64,000 nucleotides of DNA from Nostoc sp. 'Peltigera membranacea cyanobiont' 210A. Its GTDB lineage: Bacteria > Cyanobacteriota > Cyanobacteriia > Cyanobacteriales > Nostocaceae. The notes beneath the pieces were generated by a model. It did not search any database, had not been told where the DNA came from, and saw only the letters and a program-made list of their open reading frames with translations. Location: contig NZ_NOLJ01000002.1 in assembly GCF_002246015.1 (NCBI RefSeq), forward strand, positions 775,779-839,778, written 5' to 3'. The translations under genes were made by a program, and so were the position numbers. This document shows, piece by piece, positions 15,282-20,000 of the stretch; positions within the stretch are counted from its first letter, which is position 1, and every line of letters begins with the position of its first letter.

Positions 15282-15698
15282 ATGAAAATTTCTGCAATTC
15301 TCAAAGGCAGCGTTTGTGTATTAGGTTTGGTTGGTGTTGGTAATTTCTTTGCAGCACCTGCAAATGCAGGAGACGCTGCTGCTCGTGGTGCGGTTACAAT
15401 TGTTAGACCATCAGGTTCTTCTGTCAGCGTCAGTGCTGAGTTAACTGCACCCACTTCTGCATATTTCACCGGACCAATGTTACTTGTTACACCTGCATAT
15501 AGCGGTACCGCGGGTGGAAATGACGAACTTGTAACTAGTTTAACAATAGATCCAGGTGCAGTTGTAAACCTAGTATCACCACCCAGTTCTACAATCGAAG
15601 CAGCTATTGCAGCCAAGATTGATGCCGGTACTGCTACATCAATTGAAGACCTAGCAGCCCTTGTCAGAGCAGCTAGTGTTAATGGCGGTCTAGAATAG
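15282..15698 (+). CDS. Small secreted protein, paralogue A
   Basis: A 138-residue exported protein I cannot assign. The start is ATG 15282, after the ggggag box; the upstream open frame is not signal-like. A classical signal peptide ends AAPANA (about residue 29). The mature part begins GDAAARGAVTIVRPSG, has no cysteine and is rich in Ala, Thr, Ser and Val, suggesting beta structure. It is homologous along its length to the gene at 16381: both share ARGA(V/I)xIVxPSG, a TSL(T/S) strand region and an acidic C-terminal helix ending in LE. Both sit head-on to a large predicted outer-membrane protein. A hairpin at 15734-15752 follows. Confidence 0.7.
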   Translation: MKISAILKGSVCVLGLVGVGNFFAAPANAGDAAARGAVTIVRPSGSSVSVSAELTAPTSAYFTGPMLLVTPAYSGTAGGNDELVTSLTIDPGAVVNLVSPPSSTIEAAIAAKIDAGTATSIEDLAALVRAASVNGGLE

Positions 15699-15733
15699 AC
15701 TGATTGTTAACTGACAGAAAATCAAGATAGTGT

Positions 15734-15752
15734 AAAAAGCGATCGGCTTTTA
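15734..15752 (+). terminator. Hairpin terminator-like element after secreted paralogue A
   Basis: aaaaagcgatcggctttta forms a six-pair stem (AAAAGC with GCTTTT) around a GATCG loop, 36 nt past the stop codon. The T-run on the 3' arm is short, so termination strength is uncertain. Confidence 0.5.
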
Positions 15753-15974
15753 GTCTATATGCTTTCACACCTTGCATTGATTTTCAATCTCTTTTTGGGT
15801 ATTGTTTGAAAAAATTTTGCCATCAGTTGAGACGAAACGTCTACGACTATCCCCATGCTGGGCATTTGCATCAAAGTATTTGGTAATACGCGAATCAATT
15901 TTTTGACTGACTCTTCTTTACTTGTATCCATAGTTTTCACAGAAGATAAAGTAGAGAGTGATTGAGATGTAAAA

Positions 15975-16052
15975 GATTGAAGAAAAAATACAGCCCCTTG
16001 AATGTAGTTGAGGGATTGAAGAAAAAATACAGCCCCTTGAATGTAGTTGAGG
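15975..16052. repeat. Perfect 39-bp tandem duplication
   Basis: Two identical 39-bp units (15975-16013 and 16014-16052), each starting gattgaagaaaaaatacagc. The unit ends in an arm that can fold (gccccttga with tugaggggc-type pairing); the full nine-pair stem forms only in the second copy. It lies in the intergenic region between the two secreted paralogues. Confidence 0.9.
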
Positions 16053-16088
16053 GGCGGTATTTCCAAACTTATCTACTATATTACCATA

Positions 16089-16118
16089 TAAACCCGGTTT
16101 CTTAAAGAAATCGGGCTT
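16089..16118. terminator. Hairpin (cccggtttctt / aagaaatcggg)
   Basis: An 11-pair stem (one mismatch) with an almost absent loop, followed by ctttt. It resembles a widespread cyanobacterial palindrome and could end transcription on either strand. Confidence 0.5.
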
Positions 16119-16380
16119 TTGATGTTGTTTAAATAGATACTTTACGAAATCTTTTAAATTAGCCAATAGGTAAAATACAAAAGGCAAAAGACGGAAGCTA
16201 GAAGGCAATAGGCACAAGACAATAACACAATAATTACTCTTGGTATTTGCCTATTGAACTTTGCCTTTATTTACTAAGTGTCAATTCTTATACCAAATTT
16301 TAGTAGTCTAGCAATCAAATTTTCTGAAAAGTTACCGCTATATTGCTCATGCCAATCAAAAAAAGCATGAGGGATAAGTT

Positions 16381-16824
16381 ATGTATAGCGTGTTTCGTCA
16401 ATTGCCTAGAACTATCAAAAGAACCATTTGCTTGCTGGGTTTTATCAGTATAGGCAATTTTATTGCAGTGCCAGCATATGCACAAGAAGCTGTGGCACGT
16501 GGGGCTATTTCTATAGTTTCGCCTTCCGGCGCTTATCAAAGTGTTAGTGGTGAACTCTCTTTACCTGTTAGTAATAATTTTTTAAATCCCGGCACAAATA
16601 CGACTCTAACAATAACGCCTACTTTGACAAATATTGGAGCAACTAATCAAAGAATAACTTCTTTATCTCTGACAGTAGGCACAGCCAATGAAATAATCAC
16701 AAATAATAACAATTCGTTTTTGAATCCAACTTTACAAACAGTCAATAATCAAACATTAATTCCCGATACAGCCTCTCTCATTCAGACAATCAACAGTAAT
16801 AATGCCTTAGGAGCTTTAGAATAG
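16381..16824 (+). CDS. Small secreted protein, paralogue B
   Basis: A 147-residue exported protein, homologous to the gene at 15282. The signal peptide has a basic start (FRQLPRTIKR), a hydrophobic core (TICLLGFISIGNFIAV) and cleavage after AYA. The mature part begins QEAVARGAISIVSPSG, then SVSGELSLPVS, an Asn/Thr-rich strand region and an acidic end (…LIQTINSNNALGALE). No cysteines, metal site or lipid anchor. ATG 16381 follows tgagggataagtt. The product is richer in Asn than paralogue A, so the pair has diverged considerably. It converges on the outer-membrane-like gene ending at 17061. Function unknown. Confidence 0.72.
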   Translation: MYSVFRQLPRTIKRTICLLGFISIGNFIAVPAYAQEAVARGAISIVSPSGAYQSVSGELSLPVSNNFLNPGTNTTLTITPTLTNIGATNQRITSLSLTVGTANEIITNNNNSFLNPTLQTVNNQTLIPDTASLIQTINSNNALGALE

Positions 16825-17060
16825 TTGCAAAAACTATATTAAATTTATTGCTGCATCTACGATATTTGATAATTCTTAGGCAAGAGGTAAAGAGCAAAAG
16901 GCAATAGGAAAAAGCCAAGATATCAAGGGAAAGAAGCCTCCTTGGATTGTAATCATTGTTTTTACATACTAAAATAGTACTCGCCTATATTGTTATATTG
17001 TTTAATTAAATAATCCAGAGTAAATCTTTCTAGTTTTAGCTTGCTTATTTACTTTTTTAT

Positions 17061-20000
17061 TTAAAATCGATAACCACCTTGAATTTGCATATCAAGTCCA
17101 TTTTCTCCCGTACCAATTTTAGATTCTATAAAAATATTATTATCTGTAAAATTATATCTAAAAATAGCTCCGTAGTTTAGACCAGACAATCGGGTATTTA
17201 AGCCCACATTCTTGGTAGAATAATTTTTAATGTAAGCACCAACAGAGAAATTTCTACCAACTTTTTGTAAACCTTGTAACTCATAAAAAAGGCTTTTACC
17301 TAACTCTAGGTTCGTATTAATGTTTAAACCTGTGCTAGTGCTAAGATCACCACTAAACAGTGTTAAAAACTCACCATTGCTATTATCTTGAATAAAAGCT
17401 ATTGCAGGCGCTAAAGAAAAACTGATATTTTTTTCTTGATGATTAAAATAATAGCTGAATACAGTGGAAAAAGGATTATTGTTATTTGATGCACTATTCC
17501 AGTCAATTTTTAATGATGGTATGTGAGTGTTGACAGCTACAGGTTTTTTATTTGAGTTTAACTGGACATGAGTTTTAATATAGTTAGCCAGAATACTGGC
17601 ATATATACCCACAGATGGTTCTGCTAACCCTAAATTATTATTAGAAACTCCAGGCGCTGAGTTGGCATTTATATTAAACCAAGTTCCTAAGCTAGCGCTA
17701 TAGTTTAAATTCCCAGAAGAACCAGCAGCTAATAATTCGACTGAAGGTAAAGATAGATAACCATCAAAGCTTTTAAAACTCACACCTATGCGATCGACTC
17801 TGGTGAGTTCAAAATAATCGAATGCCAAATCAAATGTGCGGACTGGAATTGGTACTATAGTGTTATCTTCCGAATTAAATCGTTGTACAAATTGTCGTCC
17901 TTGGGAGTTAGTCAAAATAACTTCAGCACCGCTAGATTCGTTAATAGGATTAATATCAGTATTAGTCAAAGGCATTTGATTTCCTATGAAAGTCAGAGGG
18001 CCAAATCTTTCATTAGAAAGTCTGAGGGTTGAAAAGAACGTATTTCCTGGATCTAAAAGTTCAACATCTCTTTGTAAAAATTGGACTGTGCGTTTGTGAT
18101 TTCCTGTTCTCAGTTCCAAAATATTAGAATTATTAGGAGTGATTTTACTTTGAAGTGTGATACTTCCAGAGACTTGTTCTAGGTCGCTAGTTGCATTAGA
18201 ATAAGCTAAAGTACGATTTAGTCTGTTGTTAATTTGTCTTCTTTGATTCGGTGTAGACTTTGTATTTAATTCAACAAAACTTTCTCCGTTTTTAAAGCTT
18301 TCTCGTGCTTCTGCTAAACTTTCATTAATATTATCTATTTTAATGAATTCAAAGATTCCACCTAATGCCAATCCTAAAGTAGAGTTAGCTGTTTGTATAC
18401 TATCAATACTAAAGTCACTTAAATTAGCTGTAATAGACAATCCTGGGCTAGAAAAAATATTAGAATAACTAGCACTAATTTTTTCTTTATCATATTGAAC
18501 AACAGTACGATTATGAGGATAGTTAACATATAATCTGTGCCAATTAGAAGTTTTTTGTGTCTCAGATAAAGTTTTAAATATGGGGTCTCTTTTGCCGAAA
18601 GATACCCATAATAAAGAATTTAAATAAGACAAGTCTCTCTCAAGTGGCGTCAAGTAAGGATTAACTGCTATATTTAATAAATCAAAATTATCAAATTCGC
18701 CTCTCTGGGCAATCTTAACACCTGGTAACGAAGAGACAGGAGCAGTAAAACCAAAACCTTCACCCGTTAAGATATTTCCCCATAAAATACCAGTCGCTTC
18801 TAGAACACGATCGGGAATAATTTCGCCTAGCTTGAGTTGAACGCTTCCGCCATTTAGTAAAGGCTTTAAATTCGTGGTAGGAAAGGCTTGTAAAATTTTA
18901 GGTGTATTAGTAGCATCTAATAAATCAAATAAAGATCCGCCACCATCATTACTAAAAGTGGAACCGCTTCCAATAATTGGTGTAGTATTTGCCAAAACTG
19001 TGACATTAGGATCGTTAAGATTAATCCCGCTATTAATTATTACTTTACCAGCAGGTATCCCTTCAGGATTAATTAGTTCTCCTGCTAGAGAAAGTATAGA
19101 AAAATCTTGAATTTTAGCTCCGCCGACTAATTCATCAAAATTCACAGGTAAAGTAGTAATATTTTGCAATCCCCAAAATCCTTGGGTTGATGTCATATTT
19201 TGGGTAATGTAAGTTTCAGAAGCTCTACCTTGGGCAAGAATACCTGCTTGTGTACCTTTAGTCTCAATTACTAATCTATTGTTATCGAGAACCCAGTAAA
19301 ACTGGTCATCTTTGGGAAATTTAGCATAAGTAAATTTATCAACAAACTGATTGTCTCCAGAAAATTTGATATTTAAATCTGTATCTATATAATTTTCGTC
19401 TTCATTTGGTTTAAATAATTGAGGTTTAAAAGTCAGGTTATCTGTTGGATTAACAATCCAAGAATACCGATTGGAACTTGCAGTCAGAGCGTCAATAATT
19501 ATTTTCTTTTGGATTACTTGTTGTTGTTTTTTTGTTCGACGTAGTTTTTCTATGAGTATTTGCTGCTGGGGTGTGTATGGTTTTAATGGATTTGAATTTG
19601 ATGGTTGAATTGTATTTGGTTGAGGCTTTTCTTCATCTTCTTCAGGTAGCTTGGGAGGTTTGTCTTTGTATTCTTCAATTGGGATAACGTCAGCAATGGT
19701 GAATTTGCGTAGCTGTTTTGGTTTCTCTAGGTTAGAGTTAGACTTTCTTAAAGCCTGTTTTAACAGTTCTTGGCTTTGGAAGTTATTTATTTTTTGATTT
19801 GAATTGATTAATAAATTGTTATGATTAGCGATTAAATCAATGTTGTTTTGCCTGTTTATGCTTAGAGCGATCGCAGGTAATTTAATAAATACAATTTTGT
19901 ATAGTATTGTTGAATACAATAAACAAATCCCAAGAATTTTTACATTTTTTTTGAATCTCATTAGGGAGATATTGATACCTTTTCGATTTGGATTTTTCAA
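17061..20000 (-). CDS. Large putative outer-membrane beta-barrel protein, unknown function
   Basis: A 979-residue protein with an N-terminal hydrophobic segment (ILGICLLYSTILYKIVF) acting as signal sequence or anchor, then a Pro/Glu/Gln-rich spacer (about 100-160), a central soluble region and a C-terminal third of alternating beta strands. It ends in Gly-Tyr-Arg-Phe, a terminal aromatic typical of outer-membrane barrels recognised by BAM. I know no family for it. The gene is visibly AT-rich with many Asn/Ile/Lys codons, unlike ychF or lysS, which may point to transfer or to fast evolution. It faces the two small secreted paralogues. A secretion, adhesin or transport role is guesswork. Confidence 0.65.
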   Translation of the reverse strand: MKNPNRKGINISLMRFKKNVKILGICLLYSTILYKIVFIKLPAIALSINRQNNIDLIANHNNLLINSNQKINNFQSQELLKQALRKSNSNLEKPKQLRKFTIADVIPIEEYKDKPPKLPEEDEEKPQPNTIQPSNSNPLKPYTPQQQILIEKLRRTKKQQQVIQKKIIIDALTASSNRYSWIVNPTDNLTFKPQLFKPNEDENYIDTDLNIKFSGDNQFVDKFTYAKFPKDDQFYWVLDNNRLVIETKGTQAGILAQGRASETYITQNMTSTQGFWGLQNITTLPVNFDELVGGAKIQDFSILSLAGELINPEGIPAGKVIINSGINLNDPNVTVLANTTPIIGSGSTFSNDGGGSLFDLLDATNTPKILQAFPTTNLKPLLNGGSVQLKLGEIIPDRVLEATGILWGNILTGEGFGFTAPVSSLPGVKIAQRGEFDNFDLLNIAVNPYLTPLERDLSYLNSLLWVSFGKRDPIFKTLSETQKTSNWHRLYVNYPHNRTVVQYDKEKISASYSNIFSSPGLSITANLSDFSIDSIQTANSTLGLALGGIFEFIKIDNINESLAEARESFKNGESFVELNTKSTPNQRRQINNRLNRTLAYSNATSDLEQVSGSITLQSKITPNNSNILELRTGNHKRTVQFLQRDVELLDPGNTFFSTLRLSNERFGPLTFIGNQMPLTNTDINPINESSGAEVILTNSQGRQFVQRFNSEDNTIVPIPVRTFDLAFDYFELTRVDRIGVSFKSFDGYLSLPSVELLAAGSSGNLNYSASLGTWFNINANSAPGVSNNNLGLAEPSVGIYASILANYIKTHVQLNSNKKPVAVNTHIPSLKIDWNSASNNNNPFSTVFSYYFNHQEKNISFSLAPAIAFIQDNSNGEFLTLFSGDLSTSTGLNINTNLELGKSLFYELQGLQKVGRNFSVGAYIKNYSTKNVGLNTRLSGLNYGAIFRYNFTDNNIFIESKIGTGENGLDMQIQGGYRF

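Follow-up and report, generated by a model that had tools for sequence, protein, structure and literature searches.

The locus described here lies in a stretch of 64,000 nucleotides (the window) from Nostoc sp. 'Peltigera membranacea cyanobiont' 210A (contig NZ_NOLJ01000002.1, positions 775,779 to 839,778), where three open reading frames (ORFs) at 15282-20000 encode two small exported proteins on the + strand, P0001 and P0002, and, convergent with them, a protein of 979 aa on the - strand, P0003. Profile comparison makes it well supported that the small proteins are distant relatives of the subunit of an extracellular tube of Microcystis (PDB 9BTQ), and by this sequence kinship we class them as new, distant members of the tube-pilin kind. 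P0003 is predicted to form a closed transmembrane barrel with an aromatic C-terminal residue. We consider it probable that the small proteins are tube pilins and that the barrel is their outer-membrane secretion or assembly platform. An earlier note on this DNA, made from the letters alone and recognising none of the three proteins, had guessed that the three form a unit for export or surface display, with the barrel handling or holding the two small ones; such a unit is supported by co-occurrence, the predicted barrel and the kinship to 9BTQ, while physical export or holding by the barrel is our inference.

The argument for a functional unit begins with the distribution of the two families. 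An even sample of the phylum (292 genomes) was searched with profiles, scoring at most three candidates per genome for the barrel and 13 for the small family. The barrel was found in 22 genomes and the small family in 20, all of them within those 22: small genes were found in 20/22 genomes with a barrel and in 0/270 without (Fisher p 5e-29). The earlier note had suggested this very search, and in the barrel-less genomes of the sample the small family was not found, in line with its proposal. One of the two leftover barrel genomes, G182, carries a fragmented small gene of the 9BTQ-like kind. Barrel matches turned up in 35 of 99 related genomes and small-family matches in 33 or 34, depending on whether P0001 or P0002 served as the query, and across the 53 genomes of the window's genus, barrel and P0001 matches occur in the same 30. 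These two larger sets overlap with each other and with the 59 loci described next, and the three are not independent.

The genes are also neighbors. A single scan of named genomes yielded 59 barrel loci, all cyanobacterial as far as their titles tell, from Nostoc, Desmonostoc, Komarekiella, Fischerella, Pseudanabaena, Oculatella, Geminocystis, Aphanizomenon and other genera. With up to 10 kb of DNA considered on each side, 49 of them have a small gene in the vicinity of the barrel gene, the nearest one being convergent and downstream in 40, on the same strand upstream in eight and divergent in one; the gap between the two has a median of 128 nt and reaches 4,942 nt at the most (L104). That the pair is kept together while its arrangement changes speaks for a functional link. 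The ten loci without a nearby small gene come from nine genomes, seven of which carry a small gene elsewhere. Broken small genes stand beside the barrel gene at L106:8830-9523 (Dolichospermum) and L124:7251-7636, the barrel match of the latter locus stopping early, as if the system were being lost there. Clustering of the neighbors in 27 diverse loci, of which L037 and L109 represent the same stretch, returned no third gene family in more than five loci except for one signaling cluster (13/27 loci; longest member a PAS/histidine-kinase protein in L085), which we took for chance neighborhood. A mirror-tree comparison of the barrel with the nearest small protein gave a correlation of 0.88 (Spearman 0.74) over 48 loci, reached by none of 2000 permutations, with loci lacking a small gene or having a barrel ORF below 700 aa left out; shared species history alone could explain this correlation, and it is not used as support.

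In the window, P0001 (138 aa; ATG at 15282) is encoded at 15282-15698 (+) and P0002 (147 aa; ATG at 16381), the closer of the two to the barrel gene, at 16381-16824 (+). Read by eye, both start with a signal peptide, at 15282-15368 in P0001 (ending in APANA, ahead of GDAAARG) and at 16381-16482 in P0002 (ending in VPAYA, ahead of QEAVARG), and both end in LE, as part of a GGLE (15684-15695) and a GALE (16810-16821) signature, respectively. They are paralogues with 34% identity (E 2.8e-17) that have ARGAVTIVRPSG and ARGAISIVSPSG in common, together with the motif ARGA(V/I)xIVxPSG, and a search of the 8.3 Mb genome with P0001 (E up to 10) matched only these two. The earlier note was thus right about two adjacent paralogues with signal peptides, the shared motif, the final LE and the tail-to-tail layout with the large gene. 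Its 'no cysteines' is correct for the mature parts and fails for the precursors, each signal peptide containing one cysteine by eye. Domain databases were little help: none of P0001, P0002 and P0003 reached a cut-off in Pfam (the sole match, of P0001, had E 1.3), none had a match in NCBIfam, and PHROGs gave weak matches only, to families of unknown function. A Pfam scan of 15 barrel and 66 small relatives hit each family in one or two members, which we judged to be chance, including a match to DUF5316 in one relative (E 0.0004).

What identifies the small proteins is instead a profile. Alignment A3, which combines P0001 and P0002 with 64 of 87 small ORFs (66 rows), finds one entry below E 1 among the PDB sequences: chain A, 'pilin', of 9BTQ (E 1.1e-7), whose title reads 'Cryo-EM structure of extracellular tube from Microcystis Aeruginosa pcc 7806SL'. 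The bridge is a branch with members in Aphanizomenon (L107), L127 and L119, and an Aphanizomenon member finds 9BTQ on its own (E 1.3e-17). With the two Aphanizomenon rows removed from the profile and signal peptides cut, six proteins of this branch from the same three loci still score 17.0-36.6 bits, against 7.0-14.3 bits for the best of 500 shuffles. The model of P0002 (mean pLDDT 64.9, pTM 0.37) consists of four main strands plus a pair of C-terminal helices; comparing this low-confidence model with 810 chains in VIA-align places 9BTQ at rank 1 (Z 4.5, rmsd 4.2, 70 aligned residues).

The C-terminal end of the family is strongly conserved. An [LM][ED] ending is found in 84 of 89 small-family proteins and in 2 of 671 background ORFs, the latter being mechanical ORFs of at least 200 aa, some of them spurious, from partly redundant loci; [LM][EDFL] covers 88/89. 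The pilins of L119 end in VLD, an ending shared by unrelated-looking Pro-rich secreted proteins of L119 (PPVLD) and L120 (APVLD), and an unrelated-looking secreted protein of L121 ends in RTLD. Because the [LM][ED] ending is conserved and unrelated-looking secreted proteins end in VLD or TLD, our most specific mechanistic guess is that the barrel reads it as a short signal for docking or export. The small family also has larger members, with 3-4 domain copies in ORFs of 363-544 aa, at L043:7660-9261, L126:11577-13211, L128:10440-12029 and L121:1578-2669; all four end in LE or LD.

P0003 is encoded at 17061-20000 (-), starting either at a TTG at 20000 or at an in-frame ATG at codon 14. Its N-terminus is signal-like, and a tail rich in Pro precedes the C-terminal region; the earlier note had already described the beta-rich character of the latter and the Phe that ends it. 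Residues 45-979 were modeled with AlphaFold2 from a 55-row alignment (A2: P0003 and 54 of the 57 barrel ORFs above 700 aa from L053-L111, three long ones being left out), which gave a mean pLDDT of 79.8 and a pTM of 0.66, with 438/935 residues at 90 or more. In model numbering, a disordered tail (1-95) leads into helices (100-139) and then strands from 158 to the end, interrupted by a plug-like (289-416) and a helical (490-560) insert; the strands listed all fall within residues 158-934, where most ten-residue blocks exceed 85. On the DNA, the disordered Pro-rich tail (P0003 residues 45-139; pLDDT below 50) corresponds to 19584-19868 (-), and the barrel region with both inserts (P0003 residues 202-979; model residues 158-935) to 17064-19397 (-). 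The barrel suspected in the earlier note is thus what structure prediction, another check proposed there, returned. Its structural neighbors in Foldseek and VIA-align are generic barrels, namely the SAM-Mdm10 complex, VDAC, Occ porins, LptD, TonB receptors and ushers, with barrel matches spanning model residues 127-935. As none of them stands out, the fold says 'large outer-membrane barrel' only, not 'translocon'.

The C-terminal Phe is invariant in 15 barrel rows and present in at least 90% of the 55 rows; a few relatives end differently, for example in Leu (L069, L100, L108). Repeats lengthen the N-terminal tail of some relatives, to a total of 1,107-1,473 aa (L066, L070, L075, L119, L043). 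The family is assigned to none found in Pfam, NCBIfam, PHROGs or PDB sequence searches: phmmer against the PDB gave two matches (E 1.2 and 1.3), from which no family identity was taken, the barrel profile gave two (E 0.05 and 0.89) that we judged to be chance, and no Pfam match to POTRA, LptA-like or TonB-receptor plug domains was found in the barrel. A paralogous subclade of the barrel contains six loci in which the coding sequence is split between two frames, one for the signal peptide and linker and one for the barrel, that meet at the same place, in a run of nine or ten adenines (L080:9980, L081:9980, L084:10029, L082:10020, L099:10020, L036:6063). The frame upstream of the run is open for at least about 50 codons in all six, and differences by codon position are strongly biased to the third position in the barrel part (263/125/480) and weakly so in the linker (231/257/327). 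Programmed slippage or frameshifting could take place at this junction, or it could act as a phase-variable switch.

How do the closer relatives of the Microcystis tube subunit relate to the barrel? In L119, two pilin genes are followed by genes for proteins of 1271 and 1257 aa, a secreted protein of 269 aa and a barrel homologue, in this order and all on the + strand within 15 kb, much like an operon; L120 repeats the order with its pilin in pieces. The pilins of L119 match the 9BTQ stretch at 79 and 76% identity, the pilin pieces of L120 at 85 and 50%, and P0003 aligns with the L119 barrel over 875 aa at 34% identity (E 4e-133). Given the pilin similarity to 9BTQ, both loci appear to come from Microcystis or its family. 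There, too, the pilin is patchy, as in the window's genus, with matches in 3/50 genomes of the family and 2/12 of the genus. The 1271-aa and 1257-aa proteins carry Glyco_transf_41 (the SPINDLY/OGT family), one of them also an FkbM methyltransferase domain, and L120 has relatives of both. Each of five loci that have four small genes also encodes, less than 1 kb beyond the last of these, a TPR protein matching Glyco_transf_41 (L065:16945-19704, L067:17054-19873, L069:17259-20000, L072:19736-22432, L091:17035-19893), assigned by Pfam in L067 and L072 and by phmmer in the others; these neighbors suggest that glycosylation of the small proteins may recur. Passages of the literature describe MrpC of M. 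aeruginosa PCC 7806 as a surface protein involved in cellular interactions and a potential target of a SPINDLY O-glycosyltransferase (PMC2442094), and as a 'filamentous glycoprotein' (PMC11748430). The locus of L119 fits these descriptions, and 9BTQ may be MrpC or a paralogue of it.

These observations can be combined into a mechanism, in which the platform role of the barrel is suggested by linkage and predicted fold. The small proteins would cross the inner membrane by Sec, to judge from signal peptides seen by eye, and would then be held or captured in the periplasm by P0003, which is expected to extend its disordered Pro-rich N-terminal tail into this compartment. The [LM][ED] end would be the most likely recognition or docking signal, and the C-terminal barrel of P0003 the passage, the subunits going through it or at it. 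Outside, they would polymerize into a hollow tube like that of 9BTQ; the window's own proteins, we infer, form tubes as well, and the presence of two paralogues suggests that one is the major subunit and the other a minor or alternative one. The barrel is a good candidate for the machine that exports and assembles the tubes. A bolder version, to which we give not quite an even chance, is that the barrel family represents a new outer-membrane assembly pathway for extracellular tubes, without an usher-type chaperone, in which a single very large barrel reads the [LM][ED] end, secretes the pilins and nucleates the tube. If this bolder version is true, the exporter so far missing for the MrpC-type tubes of bloom-forming Microcystis would be this barrel, and such tubes would extend to Nostoc and several other cyanobacterial lineages. 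Among the literature found, no text names an exit route or exporter of the Microcystis tube; the 9BTQ paper was not part of it and may say more. With a gene partner that is almost constant and predicted to be a large barrel, one concrete gene for tube export would be at hand, possibly with a short C-terminal export tag, and the cell-cell contact of a bloom-former would be tied, through MrpC, to a surface structure in Nostoc.

Several points weigh against this interpretation. On the genomic side, the candidate limit in the search of 292 genomes means that some small genes may be missed. The second leftover barrel genome (G168) has a secreted convergent neighbor that scores 8.7 bits against the small profile and was not counted, the genome of L083 has a barrel and no small gene was found in it, and that of L106 has only the broken one beside its barrel. 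On the side of the tube kinship, P0001 and P0002 alone give no phmmer match to 9BTQ, so that a profile and bridging members are needed. The weakest link within the bridge is an L119 pilin that reaches 17.0 bits against 14.3 for its own best shuffle, and with the bridging rows and the signal peptide left out, the score of the 9BTQ stretch is as low as 15.4 bits (PDB-scale E 0.18), still above the best of 2000 shuffles (9.5). The structural evidence is subject to similar doubts: Foldseek with the weak small-protein model (pTM 0.37) returned nothing at E 0.001, the Z of 4.5 to 9BTQ may reflect just a common arrangement, and for the barrel, unrelated porins, TonB receptors, LptD and ushers are equally near in Foldseek and VIA-align.

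Of the alternatives, the one that survives best makes the barrel a surface anchor or receptor that holds or caps tubes exported by another route. We consider it unlikely, if worth keeping in mind: all linkage evidence is equally compatible with a holder and with an exporter, and the plug-like inserts of the barrel model could close the pore. It would leave the export itself to other proteins, and no further family beyond the signaling cluster stands beside the pair in more than five of the 27 loci, although these neighbors were not searched for exporters and one could sit elsewhere in the genome. A somewhat smaller chance goes to the view that the window's small proteins, though related to tube pilins, are exported matrix or adhesion proteins that form no tubes. 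Their relation to 9BTQ is only distant, and the low-confidence model leaves the mature fold open; on the other hand, the C-terminal signature and the barrel linkage are alike here and in L119 and L120, and the members of 363-544 aa with 3-4 domain copies are what one would expect if the units stack end to end.

Rather improbable is a third possibility, in which the tube is a conduit with the barrel as its porin-like base, the two importing or exporting solutes, DNA or electrons, and assembly is left to another agent or to the tube itself. The word 'tube' in the title of 9BTQ and the resemblance of the barrel model to porins, VDAC and TonB receptors speak for it; against it, no Pfam transport domain (such as POTRA or a TonB-receptor plug) matched the barrel, a TonB box not having been looked for. 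Least probable is a divergent chaperone-usher pilus system: it would account for exported small subunits and a large barrel, and FimD and PapC are among the Foldseek matches (ranks 17, 21 and 30), but LptD and the TonB receptors rank at least as well as the ushers. A classical usher system was rejected, PF00577 being absent from the barrel's Pfam matches up to E 10, and neither PF00577 nor PF00345 (PapD-like chaperone) had a match in the genome, with a positive E. coli control.

Two further observations concern DNA features. Between the two small genes, at 15975-16052, a 39-nt unit is present in two perfect tandem copies, and promoter and terminator scans gave scores near shuffle level.

Finally, we would like to compare the system that we favor, tube pilins with a barrel as their platform, with those already known. 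Ushers have C-terminal domains; the window's barrel instead ends at its last strand. Chaperone-usher pili resemble this locus in combining Sec-exported subunits with a large outer-membrane barrel and differ in the usher and PapD-like matches that were not found in this genome; cyanobacterial chaperone-usher clusters with SCPU subunits are described in passages of PMC4390875. Barrels of the LptD and FhaC/TamA type are, like P0003, large outer-membrane barrels and are among its structural neighbors, whereas P0003 has only chance profile matches in the PDB, no specific ranking and no POTRA or LptA-like Pfam match. MrpC is, like the proteins proposed here, a surface protein and a potential SPINDLY target, and Glyco_transf_41 genes follow the 9BTQ-like pilin genes in L119 and L120. 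The window's locus is unlike these MrpC-type or 9BTQ-like loci in having no SPINDLY glycosyltransferase gene nearby; the six matches to PF13844 in the genome are on contigs C1 and C23, the window being on C12. The closest comparison is with the 9BTQ tube pilin itself. The window's small proteins share with it a homology at profile level, though not one detected pairwise, and its closer relatives, in L119 and L120, are encoded on the same strand as a homologue of the window's barrel.

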